61,734 nucleotides of DNA from assembly GCA_012959865.1 (NCBI GenBank), contig DUCH01000493.1, forward strand, positions 1 through 61,734, read 5' to 3'. The stretch is from Myxococcales bacterium. GTDB lineage: Bacteria > Myxococcota_A > UBA9160 > UBA4427. Made by a program: the position numbers and the translations under genes. The notes beneath the pieces were generated by a model that ran no database searches, was not told the origin of the DNA, and saw only the letters and a list, made by a program, of their open reading frames with translations. Shown here piece by piece: positions 4,533-31,946 of this stretch (position 1 is its first letter; each line of letters starts with the position of its first letter).

Positions 4533-6956
4533 ATGGCCATTAAAATTCCCAAGAGCCCAGCCGATCTCCCCACCACCGCGCCGCGTTTCGTGGGTCGACG
4601 CCTTCGGCGAGTCGAGGATGTCGCTCTGTTGACCGGGCGCGTCGAATTTATCGACGACGTGGTGCTGCCCCGTATGCTGCACTGCGCGATCTTGCGGAGC
4701 CCCCTTGCCCACGCCCGGATTACCGGGATCGATACGACCCGAGCCGAATCCCTGGAAGGCGTGGAGGGGATAGTCACCGGAGAGGACGCCCAGCGCTGGA
4801 GCTTTCCCGCCCAGTCCTCGCCCGACGGTTGGGGGGTGCACTGTATTGCGGGCAGCAAGGTTCACTATGTGGGCGAGCCGGTGGCGGCGGTGGCGGCTTC
4901 GAGTCGCCGGGTTGCCGAAGATGCCCTCGAACTCATCGAAGTGGACTACGAACCCTTGGATCCGGTGGCGGATCCTTTCGAAGCCATGAAGCCCGACAGC
5001 CCCCGGGTGCTCGATGCCAACGCGAGCAATATCATGATGGACCGGGTCTTTACCTGGGGCGATGTGGACTCCGCCTTCGCCGACGCGGCCCATGTCTTTC
5101 AAGAAAAATTTCGTTGGAATCGCCTGGGTGCCAATCCTACAGAGACCTTCGGCTGCATCTCGGCTTGGGATCCGATGGGGCTCGACCTCACCATTCGCGG
5201 CAGTATCCAGTCCGCCGGGATGTTTGGTTTGGGCAGGGCGGCCACTTTCGGGCTCCCCTCCAACAAGGTCAATATTATTTCTCATCCCCACGGCGGGAGC
5301 TTTGGGGGCAAGGGGGGCACCCGGGGGTGCGACATCAGCTGTCTGCTCTCGCGCAAGGTCGGCGGTCGCCCGGTGAAGTGGATCGAAGATCGCGGCGAGT
5401 ACCTGCTCTCCGGGGGAAGTCAGGCCTGGGATCGGCACTACGACGTTTCGCTGGCGGTGGACGCCGGAGGAATCGTCACCGGTTTGAAGGTGGGTCTCGT
5501 GGACGATCTTGGCGCGACGGGCGAAGCCTACGGGGCGATCTCCGCCGCCAAGCCCCTGGCGGCCTTTACCGGGCCCTACACGATTCCCGTGGCGCAATAC
5601 GATCTCAAACTGGTGGCGACCAACAAGCTGCCCTGCGGCCCCTATCGCGGCATGGGGCCGCCGCCGCACTTTTTTGTTCTCGAACAGATGATGGACCGGG
5701 CGGCGCGGAGTCTGGGCGAGGATCCCGCCGAATTCAGGCGCAAAAATTTCATTCCTTCGGATCAGTTCCCGTACACGATCCCCAGCGGAAACGAATACGA
5801 CAGTGGCAACTACGACGAGGTGCTCAATCGGGTTCTTGCCCTCGCCGACTACGAGGGTCTTCGCGCCGAGCAGGCCCGGGCTCGGGCCGAGGGGCGATTG
5901 GTGGGCATCGGTGTGGCGAGCGCCATCGAGCCGGGCGTCTTCGATTGGAATGCCTACGCGATCGTCGGAATGCCGGGCACCGGGGTGCCCGAAGGGGCCA
6001 CGGTGAGCATCGACATCATGGGCATGGCTACGGTTCGGGTGGGATTCTCCTTGGAGGGGCAGGGCCAGTACACCCTGGTCAGCCAGCTGGTGGCCGATTA
6101 TTTCGGCTACGAGATCGAGTCGGTTCGGGTGGTCCAACTCGATACTCAGTCGGCGCCTCCGTCGTTTGGACCCGGCGGCAGCCGGCTCGGGGTGGCTATT
6201 ACCGGCGCGGTCCTCGGCGCCTGCGAGCGAATTCGCGAAAAGATGTGTCGAGTGGTGGCCGGGGCGATGCAGACCGAACCCGAAAATATCGAATTGATGG
6301 ATGGCAAATTCCTATTGAAGGGTGCGCCGGGAGCCGAGATGACCGTGGCCGAGGTGGCGGGCATGATGCTGGCGCGCAGTGATCTCCTGCCCCCGGACGT
6401 GGATCCTCGACCCGAGGCGACCCATGTTTGGACCGCCCCGGGGCGGACTCCCGCCGACGAAGAGGGCCGGGCCAAGAGTTACCTCACCGCCGCCCACGCG
6501 GTGCATATTGTTCAGGTGGAGATCGACGGCGACACGGGCATGGTCGAGATTCAGCGCTATTGCCTGGCCGACGATTGCGGCACCCGGCTCAATCCCGAAA
6601 CCGTAGAGGGCCAGACGGCCGGAAGCGTGGTCCAGGGCATCGGTGCCGCGCTCCTCGAGGAGTACGCCTACGATTCGGACGCCCAGCCGCTCTGCACCAG
6701 TTTCATGGACTACCTGATGCCCACGGTTTTCGACGCCCCGGAGATCGAAATGGTGGCCGTGGAAACCCCGTCTCCCTTTACGCCTCTGGGCGCCAAGGGC
6801 TGCGGAGAGGGCGCGATGCACACCACACCGGCGGCGGTTATGTGCGCCATCAACGACGCCTTGGCGCCCCTGGGCACCTCGGCCCGGGAAGTGCCCGCCG
6901 CCCCCAAACGACTTTGGAAGCTCATCCAGGAGGCCCGGAAAGGGACAGCGTCCTGA
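4533..6956 (+). CDS. Molybdenum hydroxylase large (molybdopterin-binding) subunit, CoxL-like
   Basis: 807 residues from ATG 4533; earlier in-frame starts would overlap the Fe-S subunit extensively. The aldehyde oxidase/xanthine dehydrogenase fold is clear: FVGRRLRRVEDVALLTGR at the N-terminus, GGSFGGKGG in the middle, and the C-terminal GAKGCGEGAMHTTPAA containing the catalytic Glu of the family. The substrate-pocket loop reads CGPYRGMGPPPHFF. It lacks the AYRCSFR Cys loop of true form I CO dehydrogenase, so this is not CO dehydrogenase. It is expected to hydroxylate an N-heterocycle, aldehyde or CoA-thioester-type substrate, which remains unknown. Downstream catabolic genes suggest an early ring or side-chain hydroxylation. 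Confidence 0.93.
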   Translation: MAIKIPKSPADLPTTAPRFVGRRLRRVEDVALLTGRVEFIDDVVLPRMLHCAILRSPLAHARITGIDTTRAESLEGVEGIVTGEDAQRWSFPAQSSPDGWGVHCIAGSKVHYVGEPVAAVAASSRRVAEDALELIEVDYEPLDPVADPFEAMKPDSPRVLDANASNIMMDRVFTWGDVDSAFADAAHVFQEKFRWNRLGANPTETFGCISAWDPMGLDLTIRGSIQSAGMFGLGRAATFGLPSNKVNIISHPHGGSFGGKGGTRGCDISCLLSRKVGGRPVKWIEDRGEYLLSGGSQAWDRHYDVSLAVDAGGIVTGLKVGLVDDLGATGEAYGAISAAKPLAAFTGPYTIPVAQYDLKLVATNKLPCGPYRGMGPPPHFFVLEQMMDRAARSLGEDPAEFRRKNFIPSDQFPYTIPSGNEYDSGNYDEVLNRVLALADYEGLRAEQARARAEGRLVGIGVASAIEPGVFDWNAYAIVGMPGTGVPEGATVSIDIMGMATVRVGFSLEGQGQYTLVSQLVADYFGYEIESVRVVQLDTQSAPPSFGPGGSRLGVAITGAVLGACERIREKMCRVVAGAMQTEPENIELMDGKFLLKGAPGAEMTVAEVAGMMLARSDLLPPDVDPRPEATHVWTAPGRTPADEEGRAKSYLTAAHAVHIVQVEIDGDTGMVEIQRYCLADDCGTRLNPETVEGQTAGSVVQGIGAALLEEYAYDSDAQPLCTSFMDYLMPTVFDAPEIEMVAVETPSPFTPLGAKGCGEGAMHTTPAAVMCAINDALAPLGTSAREVPAAPKRLWKLIQEARKGTAS

Positions 6957-7017
6957 TTCGGGTCCCCGCACAGCGTTCAGACCATTCACTGCCCCAACAG
7001 CCAAGAGGAGAGAAGAC

Positions 7018-7995
7018 GTGGCCGACAACGATCATTTTGTGGCGCTATCCGAATGCCATTTCATGAACCCCCAGACCATGGAGGAGCTTAGCTACTACCC
7101 GGGAATGCCTCGTTGGTGGGACAGCGTGAATGGCGTCATGCGCGCCTGGGCGGATCGTGACCTCACCGCCGAGGATGCCGAATGGCCCGCTCCTGTCGCT
7201 GAGGAATTGATCAAGCACATGGACATCGCCGAGGTCGACGTCTGTTTCTGCCTTCGCGAAGGCATGATGGACGTGAGCGGACAGACGGCGCCGCTCTCGA
7301 CCAACGGCTTCATGATGCAGCAGATTGCTCCCTATCCCGATCGCATGTATCTCGAATGCATGGTCGGGCCCATCATCCGGCGCGGCGTCGACAATGCGAT
7401 CTGGGAACTCGAGTACATGGTCAAGGAATGCAACGCCAAGCTCTGCAAGGTTTACGCACCCGAAGATCTCGGGGGCCTTGATGACAAGCGGCTCTGGCCC
7501 TTCTACGAGAAGGCCTGCGAACTCGACGTCGCGCTGACGGTCCACACAGGAATGTCCTATGTGGTGCCGCAGCCGAGTTGTCATACCCATCCCGATCGGC
7601 TGGATCAGGTATTGCTTGATTTTCCGGAACTCAAGATCATCGCGTATCACATGGGTTGGCCCCATACCGAGGAACTCATTGGTCTGGCGGGTAAGCACAC
7701 CAATCTCTACCTCAGTATGTCGGGGATCATCGGTTGGTATGCGCGCTCACCCTACCGGGGCTATCACGCCATCGGGACCGCACTGCAGTGGGTGGAGCCG
7801 CACAAGATCGTGATGGGCCTGGATCTCACCTTCGACGACATGAAGCGCGTGGTTGATTGGGTGCGGACCCTGCAAATTCCCGAGGAACTTCGGGAGCAAT
7901 ACGGTTACCTCGAGATCACCGAGGATATGCGCCGGGGCTTCCTGGGTGCGAACCTCGCGAAGCTGGCCAAGATCGATACCAAGAAGCGGGTTTGA
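7018..7995 (+). CDS. Amidohydrolase-family protein (amidohydrolase 2, PF04909 type)
   Basis: 325 residues with a GTG start and a strong upstream AAGAGGAGAG Shine-Dalgarno. The TIM-barrel amidohydrolase-2 pattern is visible: VHTGMS on a mid strand, AYHMGWPH later, and a C-terminal MGLDLTFDD with the metal/base Asp. The usual N-terminal HxH metal pair is reduced to a single ECH, so metal binding may differ. Members hydrolyse or decarboxylate cyclic substrates, including ring-opening hydrolases and ACMSD-like decarboxylases. Position between the Mo hydroxylase and the thiolase/DUF35 pair suggests it acts in the same pathway. Exact reaction unknown. Confidence 0.85.
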   Translation: MADNDHFVALSECHFMNPQTMEELSYYPGMPRWWDSVNGVMRAWADRDLTAEDAEWPAPVAEELIKHMDIAEVDVCFCLREGMMDVSGQTAPLSTNGFMMQQIAPYPDRMYLECMVGPIIRRGVDNAIWELEYMVKECNAKLCKVYAPEDLGGLDDKRLWPFYEKACELDVALTVHTGMSYVVPQPSCHTHPDRLDQVLLDFPELKIIAYHMGWPHTEELIGLAGKHTNLYLSMSGIIGWYARSPYRGYHAIGTALQWVEPHKIVMGLDLTFDDMKRVVDWVRTLQIPEELREQYGYLEITEDMRRGFLGANLAKLAKIDTKKRV

Positions 7996-21344: not shown

Positions 21345-22613
21345 TCAGTCTTCGGGCCGCGTTTGGGTCTCGGCGCTGCGGGTGGCGGGCGCCTCTATGG
21401 CTCCCGTCGCCAGATAGTCGTTGTATTCGGCCTCGGAAAGGCCGAGTCGATCGCGGAAGACGCTCGCATTGTCCTCTCCCATGGCCGCGCCCGCACGGGG
21501 GGTTCGCCCGGGGGTTCCCGTGAGTCCCAAGGGAATGCCCGTCGCCACCACGGTGCCTTTCTTCAGATGCGGAATCGTCTCGAAAAAACCACGCGCGGCC
21601 AGGTGCGGATCGCGGAGATACTGATCCTCGGTGTTCTGCACCGCGCCCGCCGGAACTCCGGCGGCCTGCAATATTTTCGCCGCGTCATGGGGCGAGTGCT
21701 TGCGAGTCCAGCGGCCAATGGCCTCGTCGATCCGGTCCGCAGACTCCCGCCGGCCTGTGGCGGTTGCGAAATCGGGGTGCAGCGCCCACTCGTCCCGGCC
21801 GATGAGATGGCAGAGCGCCCGCCATTCTTCCTCGCTGGCGACAGAGATCGCGCAATAGCGATCCTCCCCCGCGCATGCATAGCAGCCCTGGGGTGTGCGG
21901 TGGGTCGAGCGATTGCCCAAGCGTGCCGGGGGCCGGGCGTGGGCGATCTGATCCATCATCTCGGGGCCGATCATGGCCACAGTGGTCTCGAGTTGGGCCA
22001 GGGCGATCCGCTGTCCTTGGCCGGTCCGCTCCCGGTGATCCAAGGCGCAGAGCACGGCAAAGAGTCCGTGCAGTGCCGACAGGGAATCCGGATAGGCGTA
22101 TTGCGTCATGGCGCCCTGACCTTCGGGGAAGCCCCCGAGCCAGGCCATTCCCGACATGGCCTCGATATTCGGACCCCAACTCACATAGCCGGGATGCAGC
22201 CCGTCGTCGCCGAAACCGCTGCTGCTGATGGCAATGAGTTTCGGGTTTGCCGCTCGGAGTGTCTCCCAACCCAACCCGAGTTTTTCCATGGCCCCGTAGC
22301 GATTGTTCTCGATGACCAAGTCGCTTCGAGCCACCAGTCGGGTCGCGAGTTCGACGCCGGCGGGTAGTTTGAGGTTGAGGGTGACGAAGAGTTTGCCCGC
22401 ATCCCAATCGGTGAACCAGGGAGACATTTCCGGTTGAATGCTTCGGTCCTCCGACGCGGGCGGAATATAGAGTCGCACGACTCCAGGAACCCGATGCGAC
22501 TCGATACGAATTACCTCGGCCCCGCACCAGGCCAGCATGCGCCCGATCCACGGGCCCGCCATGCCCTGGGTAAACTCGACGACCTTGAGACCTGCTAGCG
22601 CCTGGGCGTCCAT
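21345..22613 (-). CDS. Class III CoA-transferase (CaiB/BaiF)
   Basis: 422 residues. Family landmarks are LAGLKVVEFTQGMAGPWIGRMLAWCGAEVIRIE at the N-terminus, TLNLKLPAG with LVARSDLVIEN, SSSGFGDDG, and a C-terminal PHLAARGFFETIPH. It transfers CoA from a donor thioester to an organic acid in the cytoplasm. It follows the next CoA-transferase gene by only 6 bp and precedes the crotonase by 12 bp. The two adjacent transferases may form a heteromer, like the 2-hydroxyacid CoA-transferase pairs of aromatic degradation, or act on different acids. Confidence 0.93.
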   Translation of the reverse strand: MDAQALAGLKVVEFTQGMAGPWIGRMLAWCGAEVIRIESHRVPGVVRLYIPPASEDRSIQPEMSPWFTDWDAGKLFVTLNLKLPAGVELATRLVARSDLVIENNRYGAMEKLGLGWETLRAANPKLIAISSSGFGDDGLHPGYVSWGPNIEAMSGMAWLGGFPEGQGAMTQYAYPDSLSALHGLFAVLCALDHRERTGQGQRIALAQLETTVAMIGPEMMDQIAHARPPARLGNRSTHRTPQGCYACAGEDRYCAISVASEEEWRALCHLIGRDEWALHPDFATATGRRESADRIDEAIGRWTRKHSPHDAAKILQAAGVPAGAVQNTEDQYLRDPHLAARGFFETIPHLKKGTVVATGIPLGLTGTPGRTPRAGAAMGEDNASVFRDRLGLSEAEYNDYLATGAIEAPATRSAETQTRPED

Positions 22614-22619
22614 CGCGGT

Positions 22620-23843
22620 CTAGATGACCCCCGATTCGCCCAGGGCTTGGAGCGTTTCTTGGGCCATGCAGAGTTCTCCGCCCAGGACTTCGGCGTTGTG
22701 CTCGCCCACGCGGGGCGCCGGGCGAGAAATCGCCCACGGCGTCGCTTCCGGGCGGAAGGGGGCGCCCGGGTAGGAAAGGGTGCCGACGGTGGGGTGATCC
22801 ACATCGACGAAATAATTTCGCGAGAGCAGGTGGGGATCCCGGGCGGAGTCTTCGGTGGTTCGCAGAGGTGTGAACGCGATATGGCGCCGCTGCCCTTCGT
22901 GGAAAACTTCGTCCACGGTGTGGAGGGCGGTCAGATCCGAGATGAAGAGATCCAGGAGTTCGCGGTATTCGATCCGCTTCGACGACGGTCCCTCGAAGAG
23001 GGGATCCAAAACTTCTTCGTTCCCGGTTTCCTCGTGGATCCACTGGGCGAGGGCCTTCCAGTGCGCCGGACGATTGACCATCAGGTAGACGCGGCCGTCT
23101 TGGCACTTATACGCGCCCGAAGGCACCGAGGCCGTTAGCCCCGTCCCCACCCGGCGCGGGATGATTCCGTCGTCGAGCCATTTGCCGACGCCGGAAATGT
23201 GGGAAACCGCCAGGGTGGTTTCCTGGAGCGAGATGTCCACGTGCTGGCCGCGCCCGGTTCGCCGCGCCGCGAGCAGGGCGATCATGCTACTGGCTGCCGC
23301 GCAGGTAGAGGCCATCAGGAACTGTTGCTCCCCCGCCAGGGCCACGGGCGGATCGTCGGCTTCGCCGATGACATGAAGCGGCCCACCGGTGGCTCCGGCC
23401 ACCAAGTCCGAGGATTTCCAGCCCGCATGGGGGCCCGTCTGTCCGAAGCCCGTGATCGACGTGACCACGATTTCGGGCTTCTCTGCCGAGAGGGACGCGT
23501 AGCCGATCCCCAAATCGTCGAGTCGGCCGACCGGCAGGGTTTCGAGCACGATGTCGGCACTCAGCGCCAGGCTTCGGAGCAGCGGCCGGCTTTCGGGGCG
23601 GTTGATGTCCAGGGTGATGCCGCGTTTGCTCGTGTTCATGTACAGGAAGTGGAGGCTGCGGTCGGCTCCCGCGATGCCGGCGAGAAAAGGGGGAATCCAT
23701 CGCCCGGAGTCGCCTCCAGGGCGCTCGACCTTGATGACGTCGGCCCCCATATCGGCCAGGAGTTTTCCGCAGTAGGTGCCACTTTCGTCGGCGAGTTCCA
23801 GCACACGTCTGCCCGAAAGTGCCGATCTGTTCCCTGCAACCAT
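22620..23843 (-). CDS. Class III CoA-transferase (CaiB/BaiF)
   Basis: 407 residues. ATG 23843 is chosen over an ATG at 23906 because AAGGAG lies about 5 nt upstream and the fold begins right after it (LSGRRVLELADESGTYCGKLLADMGADVIKVE). Other motifs are LDINRPESRPLL, VVTSITGFGQTGPHAGWKSSDLVAGATGG and RDPHLLSRNYFVDVDHP. It heads the minus-strand unit CoA-transferase, CoA-transferase, crotonase, MFS. About 150 bp separate it from the divergent aldehyde dehydrogenase gene. Confidence 0.93.
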   Translation of the reverse strand: MVAGNRSALSGRRVLELADESGTYCGKLLADMGADVIKVERPGGDSGRWIPPFLAGIAGADRSLHFLYMNTSKRGITLDINRPESRPLLRSLALSADIVLETLPVGRLDDLGIGYASLSAEKPEIVVTSITGFGQTGPHAGWKSSDLVAGATGGPLHVIGEADDPPVALAGEQQFLMASTCAAASSMIALLAARRTGRGQHVDISLQETTLAVSHISGVGKWLDDGIIPRRVGTGLTASVPSGAYKCQDGRVYLMVNRPAHWKALAQWIHEETGNEEVLDPLFEGPSSKRIEYRELLDLFISDLTALHTVDEVFHEGQRRHIAFTPLRTTEDSARDPHLLSRNYFVDVDHPTVGTLSYPGAPFRPEATPWAISRPAPRVGEHNAEVLGGELCMAQETLQALGESGVI

Positions 23844-23994
23844 GCTGCTCCTTGCGGAATTTTTAGGGAACGGAAAGTGTAGCCTCTCCTCGGGGAGCGT
23901 CTCCATCGCCTGCGCTCGATTTGCTGGAGGTCGTCCCGGTTGTTAGAAATTCGTGTAACCTGTTGTCGCTTCCAACCCAGGAGATCCCCCCCTC

Positions 23995-25533
23995 ATGGCC
24001 ATTGTGACCCCCCTCGAGATCGGCTCGTCCGGGCGCCGCCGTCTGGCTCTAGCCAGCCCCGCGACCCTGGAGCCCATCGGAGACATCGAAGTTCATACCG
24101 CCGCCGACGTGTCGGCCGCTGTAGATCGTGCTCAAAAAGCACAGGTGGATTGGGGAGTGCTTCCGGTCTCCGAGCGCGCCCGATTCATGGTCGCTGCCCT
24201 GGAAGTTCTTCTTGAGCGTCAGGAGGACATCTTGTCCACGGTGACTCTCGAGACCGGAAAGCCCCGGACCGAGGCGCTCCAGATGGAAGTCTTCGCGGTG
24301 GGCGACGCGCTGAATTACTACGCGAACAACGCCGAACAAATTCTCAAGACCGAAAAACGAAAACTGCACGGTCTGATCCGCTTGATGAAGCGTTTGCGGA
24401 TTGTTTACCGGCCTCTGGGGGTCGTCGCCGTGATCAGTCCTTGGAACGGGCCTTTTGTTTTGGCGATCAATCCCGCGATTCAGGCGCTGATGGCGGGCAA
24501 CGCGGTGATCCTCAAGCCCTCGGAAGTGGCGCCCTTTTCGGGACTCCTCGCTGGGGAGATCTTTGCCCAGGCGGGTCTGCCCGAGGGACTCTTCCAGGTG
24601 TTGACGGGCGACGGGGAGACGGGCGCGGCGCTGTGCAAGGCCGGTGTAGACAAAGTGACCTTCACAGGAAGTGTCGAGACCGGGCGCAAAGTCGCCGTGT
24701 CCTGCGCCGAGCAATTGATCCCCTGCACCCTCGAACTCGGGGGCAACGACGCGATGATCGTCTGCGATGATGTCAATCTCGACTACGCGGCGGCCGGCGC
24801 AGTCGCCGGCGCTTTCATGAATACCGGCCAGTATTGTTGCGGTACCGAGCGCGTCTACGTGGTGGACTCGGTGGCCGACGCCTTTACGGAAAAGGTCGTC
24901 GGAAGAGTCGCCGAACTCAGGCAAGGTGTTCGGGGCGAGTTCGACGTCGGGGCGATTTTTTGGCCCCGTCAACTCGAGATCATCGAGGAGCATGTGGCCG
25001 ACGCCCGGGAGCGCGGGGCGAAAATTCTGACTGGCGGGCGGCGCAACCCGGATCTTGACGGCTTCTTCTATGAACCCACCGTCCTCACCGACGTCGACCA
25101 TTCAATGAAGATCATGCAGCACGAAACGTTTGGACCGGTTCTGCCCATTATGCGGGTCGCCAACGAAGAAGAGGCCATTGAACTCGCGAATGACAGTGCC
25201 TATGGGCTGGGGGGCTGCGTTTGGACTCGCGATAACCGAAAGGGAATCAAGATCGCCCAACGTATGGAATCGGGCAGTGTCTGCGTGAATGATATGACGA
25301 TGACCTACGGGATCCAGGAAGCCCCTTTTGGCGGACGCAAGGCGAGCGGTATCGGGCAGGTGAACGGCGAAGCCGGCTTGCGGGGCTACTGCCATGCCGA
25401 GCCCATTGTTGTGGACCGTCGCAGAGGGAAGATGTCGGCCTCCCGCTATCCCTATCGGGCCAAGAGCGACGCGGGCTTGCAGAAGCTCATGAAATTGCTC
25501 TGGGGGACGAGCCTGGGACGCTGGCTGTTCTGA
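23995..25533 (+). CDS. NAD(P)-dependent aldehyde dehydrogenase
   Basis: 512 residues. ALDH superfamily motifs are PWNGPFVLAINPAIQALMAGNAVILKPSE, FTGSVETGRKV, the Glu of TLELGGNDAMIV, and the nucleophile Cys281 in NTGQYCCGTERVY. C-terminal ETFGPVLPIM and PFGGRKASGIG are normal. About 40 extra C-terminal residues, rich in basic and aromatic side chains, extend beyond the typical end and might contact membrane or partner. It oxidises an aldehyde to acid or acts as a succinate-semialdehyde-like enzyme. It is divergent from the CoA-transferase unit, which could take the resulting acid. Confidence 0.93.
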   Translation: MAIVTPLEIGSSGRRRLALASPATLEPIGDIEVHTAADVSAAVDRAQKAQVDWGVLPVSERARFMVAALEVLLERQEDILSTVTLETGKPRTEALQMEVFAVGDALNYYANNAEQILKTEKRKLHGLIRLMKRLRIVYRPLGVVAVISPWNGPFVLAINPAIQALMAGNAVILKPSEVAPFSGLLAGEIFAQAGLPEGLFQVLTGDGETGAALCKAGVDKVTFTGSVETGRKVAVSCAEQLIPCTLELGGNDAMIVCDDVNLDYAAAGAVAGAFMNTGQYCCGTERVYVVDSVADAFTEKVVGRVAELRQGVRGEFDVGAIFWPRQLEIIEEHVADARERGAKILTGGRRNPDLDGFFYEPTVLTDVDHSMKIMQHETFGPVLPIMRVANEEEAIELANDSAYGLGGCVWTRDNRKGIKIAQRMESGSVCVNDMTMTYGIQEAPFGGRKASGIGQVNGEAGLRGYCHAEPIVVDRRRGKMSASRYPYRAKSDAGLQKLMKLLWGTSLGRWLF

Positions 25534-27519: not shown

Positions 27520-28965
27520 ATGACCGATTCCGCCCGCCCTCCGCTGCCTTCGGGTTTCGTGGTCTTCGTTAAACGCGATTGTCCGACGTGCGAATTGGTC
27601 GTTCCGGTACTCCAGGAGTTGGCCAATTTGGGCGCGCTCACGATTTTTTCCCAGGACGATCCGAATTTTCCGTCGGGCATGAAGATTCGAGACGACCGGA
27701 CGCTCGAAAACTCATGGCGCCATTCCATTGAAGCCGTGCCAACGCTGATCGTGGTGGAGGGGGGCGTCGAGCGGTCAAGGACCGTGGGCTGGGAGCGCGC
27801 CGAATGGAAAGCCTTGACGGGTGCCGCGAATCTGGGTTCGGGACTTCCGGATTTCCGGCCGGGATGCGGATCGCTCTCGGTTGACCCCCAGTACGCGCTG
27901 GATTTGGCGGTCCGTTTTGGCGGCGGAGCGATGAAGTCGCGACGCGTTCGCTTTGCACCTCTCGAGGACGAGATGGAAGCGGCCTTCGATCGGGGCTGGA
28001 CCGACGGCCTGCCCGTAGTGCCCCCCAGTGAGCGAAGAGTCCTGGCCATGCTCCAGGGAACCTCCCGCAAGCCCGACGAAGTCGTGGCGGTTGTGCCTCC
28101 CGATCTCATCGAGTGCACGGTGGAGAAGGTGGCGGTCAATGCCGTCATGGCGGGTTGTCGGCCCGAGTATTTTCCGGTGGTGCTGGCGGCGGTGGAAGCC
28201 GCCTGCACCGAGCAATTCAACATGCACGGACTTCTGGCGACAACCATGCCCGCCGGGCCGGTCATCATCGTCAACGGCCCCATCCGGCGTGCGATTGGAA
28301 TGAATTCGGGGGGCAATGTATTCGGCCAGGGGAACCGGGCGAATGCCACCATCGGTCGTGCCCTGCAACTGGTCATTCGAAACGTGGGCGGCGGGCGTCC
28401 GGGCGAGGTGGACCGGGCGGCCTTCGGGAACCCTGGAAAGCTTTCCTTCTGTTTTGCCGAGGACGAGGAGGGCTCACCCTGGGGACCCCTCTCCGCCGAT
28501 CTGGGCGCCGAGTCCGGGGTCAGCACGGTTACGCTCTTCCCCGGAGAGGGGCCGCGCATTATTGTCGACCAGTTGTCCCGAGAGCCCGAATCCCTGGCGC
28601 GCTCCTACGCGGCCAATCTGCGTACCTTGATCCACCCCAAGCTCGTGATGGCCTTCGATTGTATTTTGGCCATCGGTCCCGAGCACGCCCGGGTCTTCAG
28701 TGAGGCGGGCTGGACCAAGGAGCGGCTCGTCGCGCGCTTGCACGAACTTTTGATGATTCCCACCACCGAACTGGTCCGGGGAGCGGGGGGCATGGCCGAA
28801 GGTGTGCCCCCAGAGGTTTCTGCCCCAGCCCTTCCCAAGTTTCGTCCCGGCGGTATCCTGCTCGTGTACTGTGGCGGCGACGCGGGACTCTTTTCCACTA
28901 TGATTGGCGGGTGGGTGACGGGCGAAGTGGGGAGCCAACCCACCCTACGGGAGATTCGATCGTGA
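27520..28965 (+). CDS. Thioredoxin-fold fusion protein, partner of the UGSC selenoprotein
   Basis: 481 residues with AAGGAG upstream of ATG 27520. Residues about 10-100 form a thioredoxin-like domain: the redox pair C21-P-T-C24 sits at the normal place and a cis-Pro loop appears at AVPTLIV. A GCGS motif follows at about 115-118. The rest (about 140-481) is a conserved domain of unknown function with GWTDGLPVVPP, NAVMAGCRPEYFPVVLAAVEA, VNGPIRRAIGMNSGGNVFG and LVYCGGDAGLFS. It overlaps the following GTG by four bases (GTGA), so the two are translationally coupled. The pair may be a reductase and its electron donor; the reaction is unknown. Confidence 0.85.
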   Translation: MTDSARPPLPSGFVVFVKRDCPTCELVVPVLQELANLGALTIFSQDDPNFPSGMKIRDDRTLENSWRHSIEAVPTLIVVEGGVERSRTVGWERAEWKALTGAANLGSGLPDFRPGCGSLSVDPQYALDLAVRFGGGAMKSRRVRFAPLEDEMEAAFDRGWTDGLPVVPPSERRVLAMLQGTSRKPDEVVAVVPPDLIECTVEKVAVNAVMAGCRPEYFPVVLAAVEAACTEQFNMHGLLATTMPAGPVIIVNGPIRRAIGMNSGGNVFGQGNRANATIGRALQLVIRNVGGGRPGEVDRAAFGNPGKLSFCFAEDEEGSPWGPLSADLGAESGVSTVTLFPGEGPRIIVDQLSREPESLARSYAANLRTLIHPKLVMAFDCILAIGPEHARVFSEAGWTKERLVARLHELLMIPTTELVRGAGGMAEGVPPEVSAPALPKFRPGGILLVYCGGDAGLFSTMIGGWVTGEVGSQPTLREIRS

Positions 28966-29513
28966 GCGGAGCCAGCGAGAGTCCCGAAGCATCCGGCGGC
29001 GTAGTCGTCCTCGACCCCACCAGCGAGCGATCGCTCGCCACTCGCGAGCGCCTGCCGCGTCCTGTCAAACTCGACGGGCTCGATCTAGCGCTGCTCGATA
29101 TTTCCAAGGCCCGGGGCGATGTCTTCATGGATCGGCTGGAAACTCTCTTCACCCAGCAAGGCGCCCGAGTCAAACGTTTCAGCAAACCGACCTTCACCAA
29201 ACCCGCTCCCCCCGACGTGCGCCGGCAGATCGCCGAGGAGTGCGCGGCGGTGGTGGAGGCCCTCGCGGATTGAGGCAGTTGCACGTCGTGCAGTGTGCAC
29301 GACATGGTCAATCTCGAGGCCCAGGGCGTTCCTGGTGTCTTTATCGCGAGCGATGTGTTCAAGGACGGCGCGCGGGGTCAGGCCAAGTCCCTCGGCGCCG
29401 ATCCCGCGGCGGTCTACATCCCGCATCCGATTCAGGACCGTACGGACGCGGAGATGGTGGCTCTGGCGGATGCGTCTTTCGACGAGATCGTGGGTCAGTT
29501 GGTGGGCGGCTGA
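28962..29513 (+). CDS. UGSC-motif selenoprotein (in-frame TGA at 29271-29273 read as selenocysteine)
   Basis: 183 residues if TGA at codon 104 is read as Sec; otherwise a 103-residue product ends in ALAD. The frame continues past TGA without interruption and is clearly coding: U-GSCTSCSVHDMVNLEAQGVPGVF, then FIASDVF, LGADPAAVYIPHPIQDR and ADASFDEIVGQL. The U-G-S-C motif with a further Cys at 110 is typical of a redox-active selenoprotein, and I recall a UGSC (seleno)protein family named from genome annotation, with unknown function. A SECIS-like hairpin lies 11 nt after the TGA. GTG start with GGGAG about 8 nt upstream, overlapping the thioredoxin-fusion stop. Needs selABCD, not in this window. 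Confidence 0.92.
29271..29273 (+). other. Recoded UGA codon (selenocysteine)
   Basis: The TGA sits in frame between GCGGAT (Ala-Asp) and GGCAGTTGC (Gly-Ser-Cys), giving Sec-Gly-Ser-Cys at residues 104-107. Coding signal of the same frame is strong on both sides, which argues against a true stop or a pseudogene. Confidence 0.9.
29285..29303 (+). promoter_or_regulatory. Bacterial SECIS-like hairpin
   Basis: GUCGUGCA-GUG-UGCACGAC forms a perfect 8-bp stem with a 3-nt loop beginning with G. Beyond one C-A mismatch, two more base pairs extend the stem. The spacing from the UGA to the stem is 11 nt, equal to that of the minimal E. coli fdhF SECIS upper stem-loop, and a G at the start of the loop is the feature SelB usually needs. 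The element lies inside the coding sequence. Confidence 0.82.
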
Positions 29514-29607: not shown

Positions 29608-30000
29608 ATGCTGAAATTGCTTTTGATTGCCGTGGGTGGAGGTTTGGGAACCTTGGCCCGTTACGGGGTGACGGGTTTTGCCCAACGTTTGAGCGAGAGC
29701 CATTTCCCGTTGGGGACGCTGATGGTCAACCTCACGGGTTGTCTCTTGATCGGGGGGCTGTCGGCTTTCTTTGCGGGCGGGGTCGGGGTTCGCGAGGAAT
29801 ATCGCTGGGCGATCACCGTGGGCTTTTTGGGAGGCTTCACCACCTTCGCAGCCTTTGGCTTCGAAACCTTCGCGTTGTTCGAAAATCGACACGGGGGACT
29901 CGCGGTGGCGAATCTGGTGATCAGCAATTTGGGCGGATTGATCGCGGTTTGGGCGGGCTATCGACTGGTGGGCCTGCTCCGGGTCGCCGGCGCGGCCTGA
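29608..30000 (+). CDS. crcB: Fluoride channel CrcB/FluC
   Basis: 130 residues, four hydrophobic segments, normal length for a dual-topology fluoride channel subunit. Family motifs are GGGLGTLARYGV at the N-terminus, LMVNLTGCLLIG with the pore Asn, and VGFLGGFTTFAAFGFET with the conserved Phe/Thr pore track. It exports F- from the cytoplasm as a dimer. The start lies 94 bp after the selenoprotein stop on the same strand, so co-transcription is likely. No fluoride riboswitch consensus was found in that gap. Why a fluoride channel adjoins the selenoprotein is unexplained. Confidence 0.93.
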   Translation: MLKLLLIAVGGGLGTLARYGVTGFAQRLSESHFPLGTLMVNLTGCLLIGGLSAFFAGGVGVREEYRWAITVGFLGGFTTFAAFGFETFALFENRHGGLAVANLVISNLGGLIAVWAGYRLVGLLRVAGAA

Positions 30001-30036: not shown

Positions 30037-30966
30037 CTAACGAATGGCGACGGGGTTGATGACGCTCTGTACGGTGCCCACGAAACGCGGCGCCCCGAGG
30101 ACGAAGAGGAATTCCGAAGCCCCGTCGGCGGCTAGCGCCCGCGTGTCCATATTTTCGAGAATGTAGACCCCAGAGCGCGCGAGCAATTCGGGGTGAACGG
30201 GAAAGGCAGTCTTTGGATCCTCGGAAGGCAGGGCCTCCAGGGCCCATGTGTCGGCGCCCACGGCAACGACCCCGAGTTTCGCCAAGTAACGGGCGCCCCC
30301 CAGTCCCAGGCCCGGTTGCCCCGCCATGAATCGCTGGGGGTCGCTGTCGGCTACATCGAGCCAGCCCGTGTGAAAGAGCACCACGTCGCCCTTCTCGAGT
30401 GTGAGCCCGCGCTCGCGCGCCACCGCCTCGATTTCTTTCTGATTGAAAGCCGTGCCCTCGGGCAAGGGGCTCACCCCGTAGTGCCGGGTCATGTCGAGCA
30501 GGACGCCCCGAGTCACGATGGGAGGCAAGGTATCGATGCCAAACTTCAGCAGGCCCTGGGTGGTGACGAATTCGCTCGCCGGGGTGTTGTTGTAGTAGAC
30601 ATGGTTGACTCCCATGTGTCCCAGCCCGTCGATCTGGCTCCCCACCCCCATCCACGCGTAAATGACATCGTCATTGCCCGTGGCCTTGTTGCTACCCAGG
30701 GGCGTCCCCGTTCCGTCGGAGAGTTGAGTCACCGTCAATTGGTAGCTTCGGGGACCGTAGGCCGGAGTTTCTGGGCCCGTCGGCACGCCAAGGGGATAGG
30801 TCTTCCCGGTCTTGATCAGGCGGGCCGCGGCCAACACTTTGGCGGGGGAGAGGTTGTTGATGGCGCCGAGGGTGTCGTCCGGACCGTACGGCGAGGGCAG
30901 CTCCCCGGAACTCGTCAGGGGTAGGGCGAAAACGAGGAAGACCAGTGTGCTGAGAATTTTGGGCAT
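30037..30966 (-). CDS. Cyclase-family (kynurenine-formamidase-like) metal hydrolase, secreted
   Basis: 309 residues with GGAG 9 nt upstream of ATG 30966. A signal peptide (KILSTLVFLVFALPLTSSG) predicts export. The cyclase/PF04199 motif that is HxGTHxDxxxH in KynB appears as GVGSQIDGLGHMG, in the SQIDGLGH variant, so the metal Asp and His are kept. Later LDMTRHYG, VLFHTGW and VGADTWALEA fit the family. These enzymes hydrolyse amides or lactones. It is convergent with crcB and divergent from the LLM gene. Substrate unknown. Confidence 0.87.
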   Translation of the reverse strand: MPKILSTLVFLVFALPLTSSGELPSPYGPDDTLGAINNLSPAKVLAAARLIKTGKTYPLGVPTGPETPAYGPRSYQLTVTQLSDGTGTPLGSNKATGNDDVIYAWMGVGSQIDGLGHMGVNHVYYNNTPASEFVTTQGLLKFGIDTLPPIVTRGVLLDMTRHYGVSPLPEGTAFNQKEIEAVARERGLTLEKGDVVLFHTGWLDVADSDPQRFMAGQPGLGLGGARYLAKLGVVAVGADTWALEALPSEDPKTAFPVHPELLARSGVYILENMDTRALAADGASEFLFVLGAPRFVGTVQSVINPVAIR

Positions 30967-31100: not shown

Positions 31101-31946
31101 GTGACCGACTTTGGCGTCGCCTTCTTTCCCACCGACTACTCGATCCAGCCCGTGGAGCTCGCTCGGGCCCTGGAAGAGCGGGGTCTCGACTCCCTCTACG
31201 TCACCGAGCACACGCACATCCCCACCAGTAGAGAGACCCCGTGGCCCGGCGGTGCCGACCTCCCCGAGGAGTATTGGCACACCCACGACCCTTTCGTCGC
31301 CCTGGCGGCGGCTGCGGCGGTGACGAAAACCCTGCGGCTGGGAACCGGCATCTGCCTGGTGGTCGAGCGCGATCCGATTCAACTCGCCAAGCAGGTGGCC
31401 TCTTTGGACATGATTTCCGGTGGCCGGGTTGTTCTCGGGGTGGGGGCGGGGTGGAACCGTGAGGAAATGGAGAATCACGGCGTCGACTACGCGAATCGCT
31501 GGGCCGTGGTGCGCGAGAAGGTGCTGGCCATGAAGGCGATCTGGACCGAAGACGAGCCCGAGTTTCACGGTGAGTTCGTCGACTTCGATCCGATCTGGTC
31601 GTGGCCGAAGCCCGTTCAGCCCGGAGGCCCGAAGGTCTTGATTGGTGCTCAATCGCGCTGGACCTGGGAGCGGGTGGTGGACTATGGCGATGGCTGGATG
31701 CCGATCGGTATTCGGGGTGGCCTGGAGGAAGGCATGGCCGAACTTCGCGCCCAATGCGCGGCGACGGGGCGAGACTTTGACGCGTTGGAGAAAACAATTT
31801 TCGCGGCGCCCGCGAAGCCCGAAGCCGCCAAGCGGCTGATCGAAGCGGGTTTTTCCGAGTTGACCTTCTCGCTCCCTTCGGTTCCGTCGGAGAAAGCCCT
31901 TCCGCTTTTGGATCGCTTCGCCGAATTGGCCCGGGTGCTCCGCTAG
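31101..31946 (+). CDS. LLM-class F420-dependent oxidoreductase
   Basis: 281 residues with CAGGAG before GTG 31101. Bacterial luciferase-like TIM barrel motifs are GLDSLYVTEHTHIP, LRLGTGICLVVERDPIQLAKQVASLDMISGGRVVLGVGAGWNREEMENHG and GGPKVLIGAQS; the Gly/Asn-rich GAGWNREE is characteristic of the F420-utilising branch (TIGR03619-like). It would use reduced F420 or FMN for hydride transfer or Baeyer-Villiger-type chemistry. If F420 is used, cofactor genes must exist elsewhere. The physiological substrate cannot be deduced. Confidence 0.88.
   Translation: MTDFGVAFFPTDYSIQPVELARALEERGLDSLYVTEHTHIPTSRETPWPGGADLPEEYWHTHDPFVALAAAAAVTKTLRLGTGICLVVERDPIQLAKQVASLDMISGGRVVLGVGAGWNREEMENHGVDYANRWAVVREKVLAMKAIWTEDEPEFHGEFVDFDPIWSWPKPVQPGGPKVLIGAQSRWTWERVVDYGDGWMPIGIRGGLEEGMAELRAQCAATGRDFDALEKTIFAAPAKPEAAKRLIEAGFSELTFSLPSVPSEKALPLLDRFAELARVLR

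Follow-up and report, generated by a model that had tools for sequence, protein, structure and literature searches.

The stretch of DNA analyzed here (the window; 61,734 nt from a Myxococcales bacterium) holds a reading frame interrupted by a TGA codon. It raises the questions of whether this codon is read as selenocysteine (Sec), what kind of protein would result, and with which partner that protein would act.

The UGSC gene and its internal TGA

Read through, the gene (Table 1) specifies 183 residues (VSGASE...EALAD-U-GSCTSCSVHD...LVGG), with a single internal TGA at codon 104 and a terminal TGA. The translation bears out the initial annotation, which had placed Gly-Ser-Cys and then Thr-Ser-Cys behind this codon in a coding frame, and mechanical ORF calling split the frame in two (28911-29273 and 29295-29513), as had also been anticipated. 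Profile searches with the read-through protein returned 138.5 bits for PF24696 (cut-off, 25) and 137.1 bits for NF041046, "UGSC family (seleno)protein" (cut-off, 125), both alignments running across the TGA. By these matches, the window gene is a member of the known UGSC family (NF041046/PF24696). This family was named in 2008 from ocean metagenomes (PMC2398784), and metagenomes from oceans and fresh waters show it to be one of the most abundant selenoprotein families (PMC2398784, PMC9402790). It stands in a 2026 review among the largely uncharacterized selenoproteins, without an assigned reaction (PMC13188914). The NF041046 match and the review agree with the initial annotation in that the family is named in genome annotation without a reaction. 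Translation probably starts at the GTG at 28962, whose 4-nt overlap with the stop of the upstream partner gene (GTGA in the window, ATGA in two same-genus relatives) suggests translational coupling.

TABLE 1 Features at the UGSC locus of the window
Feature	Position	Strand	Basis or remark
Partner gene: thioredoxin domain fused to PARTC, 481 aa	27520..28965	+	ORF, profiles, model; stop overlaps UGSC start by 4 nt
Thioredoxin domain, CPTC (Cys21, 27580-27582; Cys24, 27589-27591)	27520..27850	+	NCBIfam thioredoxin, E=0.0015; Foldseek
PARTC (name given here), unnamed ~330-aa partner domain	27868..28965	+	Accompanies UGSC in all subfamilies examined
UGSC selenoprotein gene	28962..29513	+	GTG start, internal TGA as Sec104, stop TGA 29511-29513; read-through translation and profiles
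Sec codon TGA, residue 104	29271-29273	+	Translation
Cys107; Cys110	29280-29282; 29289-29291	+	With Sec104, UxxCxxC motif
SECIS-like hairpin, GUCGUGC-AGUGU-GCACGAC	29285..29303	+	Fold; synonymous-codon test; compensatory pair counts
crcB fluoride exporter gene	29608..30000	+	94 nt downstream of UGSC

Comparison of the window with three same-genus relatives yielded dN/dS values of 0.07-0.11 on the 3′ side of the TGA and 0.14-0.21 on the 5′ side; coding constraint persists beyond the codon. A search for sel genes, which it had suggested, retrieved selA, selB, selD, and tRNA-Sec (69 bits, anticodon TCA) from the same genome, all above their cut-offs. The UGSC family was present in 68 of 379 genomes sampled from the phylum, its genes containing a single internal TGA in almost every case. 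A cross-phylum scan of 80 loci, seeded with the partner domain, found TGA at the Sec position in 71, TAG in two, and a Cys codon in one; one further gene was cut off by the contig ahead of this position, and in five loci UGSC was not found in the stretch covered, which for two of them (L099 and L121) extends no further than the end of the partner gene or slightly past it. Relatives thus carry Sec (TGA), UAG-encoded Sec, or Cys at the position in question, where the initial annotation had expected Sec or Cys. None of the three findings that the initial annotation had named as counterevidence was obtained. Both TAG cases belong to Geodermatophilaceae (L100 and L128, 6362-6364), with a tRNA-Sec of anticodon CUA and the downstream hairpin kept; UAG recoding in UGSC proteins is already on record (PMC5330540, in a passage citing Mukai 2016). 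In the genome with the Cys codon (L171), the best tRNA-Sec match was a tRNA-Ser.

The SECIS-like hairpin begins 11 nt 3′ of the TGA. Since an Rfam search of the window returned no match, the case for this element rests on its fold and on the synonymous-codon and pair tests. Across 132 distinct genes, the 39 nt that follow the TGA folded more stably than their synonymous recodings: the mean z was -1.16, and control windows taken from these genes gave -0.15. Considered by itself, the hairpin of the window does not stand out (z, -1.1 to -1.2). Compensatory changes occur at pair 20-26 (CG/GC) and pair 18-28 (UA/AU/CG), and these positions are paired in 97-98% of cases, compared with the 80-84% expected from shuffling. 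The hairpin is weaker in Cys homologues, where 5.0 rather than 6.5 of the 7 pairs are formed, in a small sample of four Cys sequences.

Gene callers end the ORF at the TGA, as they would if it were a genuine stop or a sequencing or assembly error, with the downstream part a separate or dead gene. This reading is hardly credible, however, given that >100 independent loci have TGA at this codon and that the conserved hairpin, the purifying selection 3′ of the codon, and the sel genes all speak against it. That the codon-104 TGA encodes Sec, and hence the selenoprotein status of the product, is well supported.

Genes for Sec synthesis and insertion also lie near the pair in part of the sample: among the 91 loci that exceed 6 kb in length, 13 have selA, selB, selD, or tRNA-Sec genes next to it. 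At L106, L111, L117, L120, L126, L130, L131, L135, L149, and L151, a pair of UGSC and a thioredoxin-bearing partner shares an island with selA and selB and, in most cases, with tRNA-Sec as well. In such genomes, the UGSC pair may be the main reason for keeping Sec.

The partner gene and its pairing with UGSC

The N-terminal ~110 residues of the partner matched thioredoxins in Foldseek with a probability of 1.0. The initial annotation had inferred a physical and translational link between UGSC and a thioredoxin-fold partner, and this neighbor is real: these residues, with their CPTC motif, lie in the overlapping upstream gene. However, thioredoxin turned out to be a fused accessory of one clade, whereas the universal partner is the ~330-aa PARTC domain that makes up the rest of the protein. 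PARTC comprises ~330-365 residues and has no relative that we could find in Pfam, NCBIfam, or the PDB. The AlphaFold model of the partner, folded separately from UGSC, is confident (mean pLDDT, 94.5). Fumarase was considered as a fold relative of PARTC and discarded at a TM score of ~0.2, with no Foldseek match in the PDB below an E value of 0.001.

Wherever the contig allowed inspection, PARTC stood beside UGSC in nearly every locus of every subfamily examined. Cultured bacteria with the two genes include Pseudohongiella sp. O18 (L149), Pseudonocardia bannensis DSM 45300 (L104), and Geodermatophilus obscurus (L128). The arrangement of the pair varies, with the genes in either order or fused; a tree of 67 PARTC rows implies that the order switched at least four times, and three natural UGSC-PARTC fusions were found (L052:3620-5320, L069:4587-6338, and L078 around 5877-7529). 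Presence and absence of the two families were concordant in 78 of 80 genomes of the order (61 with both, 17 with neither). The two discordant genomes hold PARTC fragments at contig ends and no UGSC, and UGSC alone was seen in none of the 80 (Fisher p = 2e-15, relatedness being ignored). Three genomes (G125, G172, and G046) carry both families on different contigs. The constant companion of UGSC is PARTC, not thioredoxin, and the partnership is well supported as obligate. A fusion of UGSC to an uncharacterized domain with a conserved Cys, "Unknown_1," was described in the GOS data (PMC2398784) and may represent the same domain as PARTC.

The thioredoxin domain follows a third Cys in UGSC: it was present in 101 loci with the extended motif (UGSCxxC) and in none of the 33 loci without it. 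In the two apparent exceptions (L033 and L048), the reading frame of the partner is split or incomplete. Since the group with both traits occupies one side of a single branch of the tree (99% SH-aLRT), this association counts as one evolutionary event rather than as repeated support.

Relation to the Sec domain of GrdB and PrdB

The window protein weakly matched the models of GrdF (E = 7.6e-4), GrdB (E = 0.015), and PrdB (E = 0.03), in each case aligned at the Sec motif. The GrdB model also matched 17 of 37 other family members at E ≤0.1, a count that leaves out a 38th row (L073), which is a true GrdB also found by the UGSC profile. Profile comparison related UGSC to the GrdB Sec domains with 95% probability (E = 3e-8 over ~64 columns) and to a combined set of GrdB and short PF07355 proteins with 94% probability. 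The homology is limited to ~64 residues around the motif, and the full-length cut-offs were not reached for the GrdB type (TIGR01917, 14.2 versus 602 bits; NF040794, 18.2 versus 800 bits) or, by a wide margin, for PrdB (TIGR04483, 13.8 versus 300 bits). Judged by these alignments, UGSC is distantly homologous to the Sec domain found in glycine/sarcosine reductase (GrdB/GrdF) and D-proline reductase (PrdB). We found neither the relationship to GrdB nor the partner mentioned in the literature searched, which was largely open-access.

The AlphaFold model of UGSC (pLDDT, 94.6) alternates beta and alpha elements around five strands, with the Sec loop after the third. Foldseek placed it closest to solved structures of lumazine synthases, flavodoxins, and similar folds, the TM scores being mostly <0.5; a solved GrdB or PrdB structure for comparison was not found. 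The thioredoxin-like fold proposed for UGSC in PMC2398784 was rejected, as the model is flavodoxin-like and hhalign gave only 0.2% against the thioredoxin domain.

The likeness to GrdB/GrdF/GrdH (component B of glycine/sarcosine/betaine reductase; PF07355, TIGR01917) comprises a homologous Sec domain, a UxxCxxC motif, which in GrdB is documented (PMC13188914) and is the same pattern as UGSCxxC, and a second, obligatory subunit. In glycine reductase, the Sec of GrdB binds the substrate carbon and ammonia is released, with thioredoxin supplying electrons further on (PMC10298544). Thioredoxin, the reductant of the GrdB pathway, has its counterpart in the fused domain of UGSC partners in the third-Cys clade. 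PrdB resembles UGSC in being a short Sec subunit that carries Sec-x-x-Cys and has a larger subunit as its partner.

The differences lie elsewhere. UGSC lacks the N-terminal part of GrdB, and neither GrdA nor GrdC adjoins it in the window. The carbonyl of the pyruvoyl subunit GrdE is central to glycine reductase, whereas the UGSC partner is not homologous to GrdE: PF09338 (the GrdE pyruvoyl proprotein) had no match in it, and PARTC scored 0.1% against GrdE and 0.1-0.2% against GrdB in hhalign profile comparisons. PARTC was accordingly dismissed as a homologue of GrdE or of the GrdB N-terminal part. We would class the pair as a two-subunit variant of the glycine/proline-reductase kind, in which a GrdB-type Sec domain is combined with a GrdE-unlike partner.

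Other GrdB-related genes came to light as well. A second Sec family, with the motif VPVUPxC, consists of short proteins whose match to PF07355 is restricted to the C-terminal half of that model (L174-L195). It is widespread in the order, where PF07355 matches occur in 61 of 80 genomes, and the genome studied here has two such genes with an in-frame TGA (G000:C365:9037-9402, L198; G000:C408:1449-1784, L199). Within the same order or class, L196 and L197 hold a GrdB gene, with its Sec TGA, that neighbors a GrdE-type PF09338 gene, and L073 holds the end of a GrdB together with a GrdA-like frame with an in-frame TGA.

A candidate two-subunit reductase

With some reserve, we favor the view that UGSC and its partner make up a two-subunit, thioredoxin-fed selenoenzyme, in which UGSC is the Sec subunit with a GrdB/PrdB-type domain and PARTC is the substrate subunit. 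UGSC would then be a redox enzyme and, by analogy with GrdB, its chemistry the reductive cleavage of a small molecule. The small subunit would present Sec104 on the Sec-x-x-Cys(-x-x-Cys) loop of its GrdB/PrdB-type domain, and PARTC of the large subunit would most likely form the substrate site in place of GrdE; substrate binding by PARTC is a guess, because this domain has no relative of known function. As in the glycine reductase model, the selenolate of Sec104 would attack a small substrate bound with the partner and cleave a bond, after which Cys107 would resolve Sec104 to a selenenyl-sulfide. Cys110 might relay electrons, a Cys of this type being found only where thioredoxin is fused, and the fused thioredoxin domain, through its CPTC motif and recharged by thioredoxin reductase, would regenerate the enzyme.

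A Sec-x-x-Cys motif and a fused thioredoxin are both common among thiol redox proteins, and UGSC could on that account be a general thiol-disulfide or peroxide oxidoreductase, with a peroxiredoxin- or thioredoxin-like Sec-Cys pair that the fused thioredoxin would reduce and for which the partner would serve as a scaffold. We regard this as unlikely, as UGSC itself shows no similarity to thioredoxin, no thioredoxin appears among the 50 best PDB matches of its flavodoxin-like model, and its homology points to GrdB/PrdB; moreover, the paralogous subfamilies without the third Cys also go without the thioredoxin domain.

The two-subunit selenoenzyme, favored above, admits a wider and more tentative formulation. 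With up to eight UGSC copies per genome, UGSC and PARTC could constitute a superfamily of Sec-dependent reductases with two subunits that is undescribed, widespread, and expanded. It would combine the Sec chemistry of glycine reductase with a substrate subunit of a non-pyruvoyl type, each paralogous pair would have a small molecule of its own as substrate, and the setting would lie outside the anaerobic amino-acid fermenters from which this chemistry is known. The relation to GrdB/PrdB offers a first concrete idea of a possible function for the UGSC family and, together with the obligate partner, turns an "unknown selenoprotein" into a testable two-subunit enzyme. The Sec-dependent reductive chemistry of anaerobic amino-acid fermenters may likewise be represented widely, in a related form, among marine and soil bacteria.

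The gene downstream of UGSC invites a more specific proposal, namely, that the enzyme is a reductive dehalogenase (e.g., a defluorinase) comparable to the fluoroacetate reductase, related to GrdB, that has been proposed for Cloacibacillus; the fluoride would then be exported by way of crcB. GrdB-like proteins have been implicated in monofluoroacetate reduction (PMC10838667), and crcB lies directly downstream of UGSC in each of the five genomes of the genus; in one other genus, the distance is ~2.6 kb. However, the neighborhood is generally syntenic across the genus, and crcB was not found at the cross-phylum loci, which makes dehalogenation a very improbable function. A role for crcB alongside UGSC is doubtful because the gene belongs to this block of general genus-level synteny, and a fluoride link through crcB was set aside as the main explanation on the same two grounds.

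The neighbors of the paralogous loci include class III CoA-transferases, an acyl-CoA dehydrogenase, a thiolase, a P450, and luciferase-like proteins. They hint at acyl-CoA metabolism and are too inconsistent to name a substrate. In the window, the neighbors at 21345-22613, 22620-23906, 23995-25533, 30037-30966, and 31101-31946 look catabolic: by sequence, two resemble class III CoA-transferases, one an aldehyde dehydrogenase, and one a luciferase-like protein, alongside a putative cyclase (PF04199).
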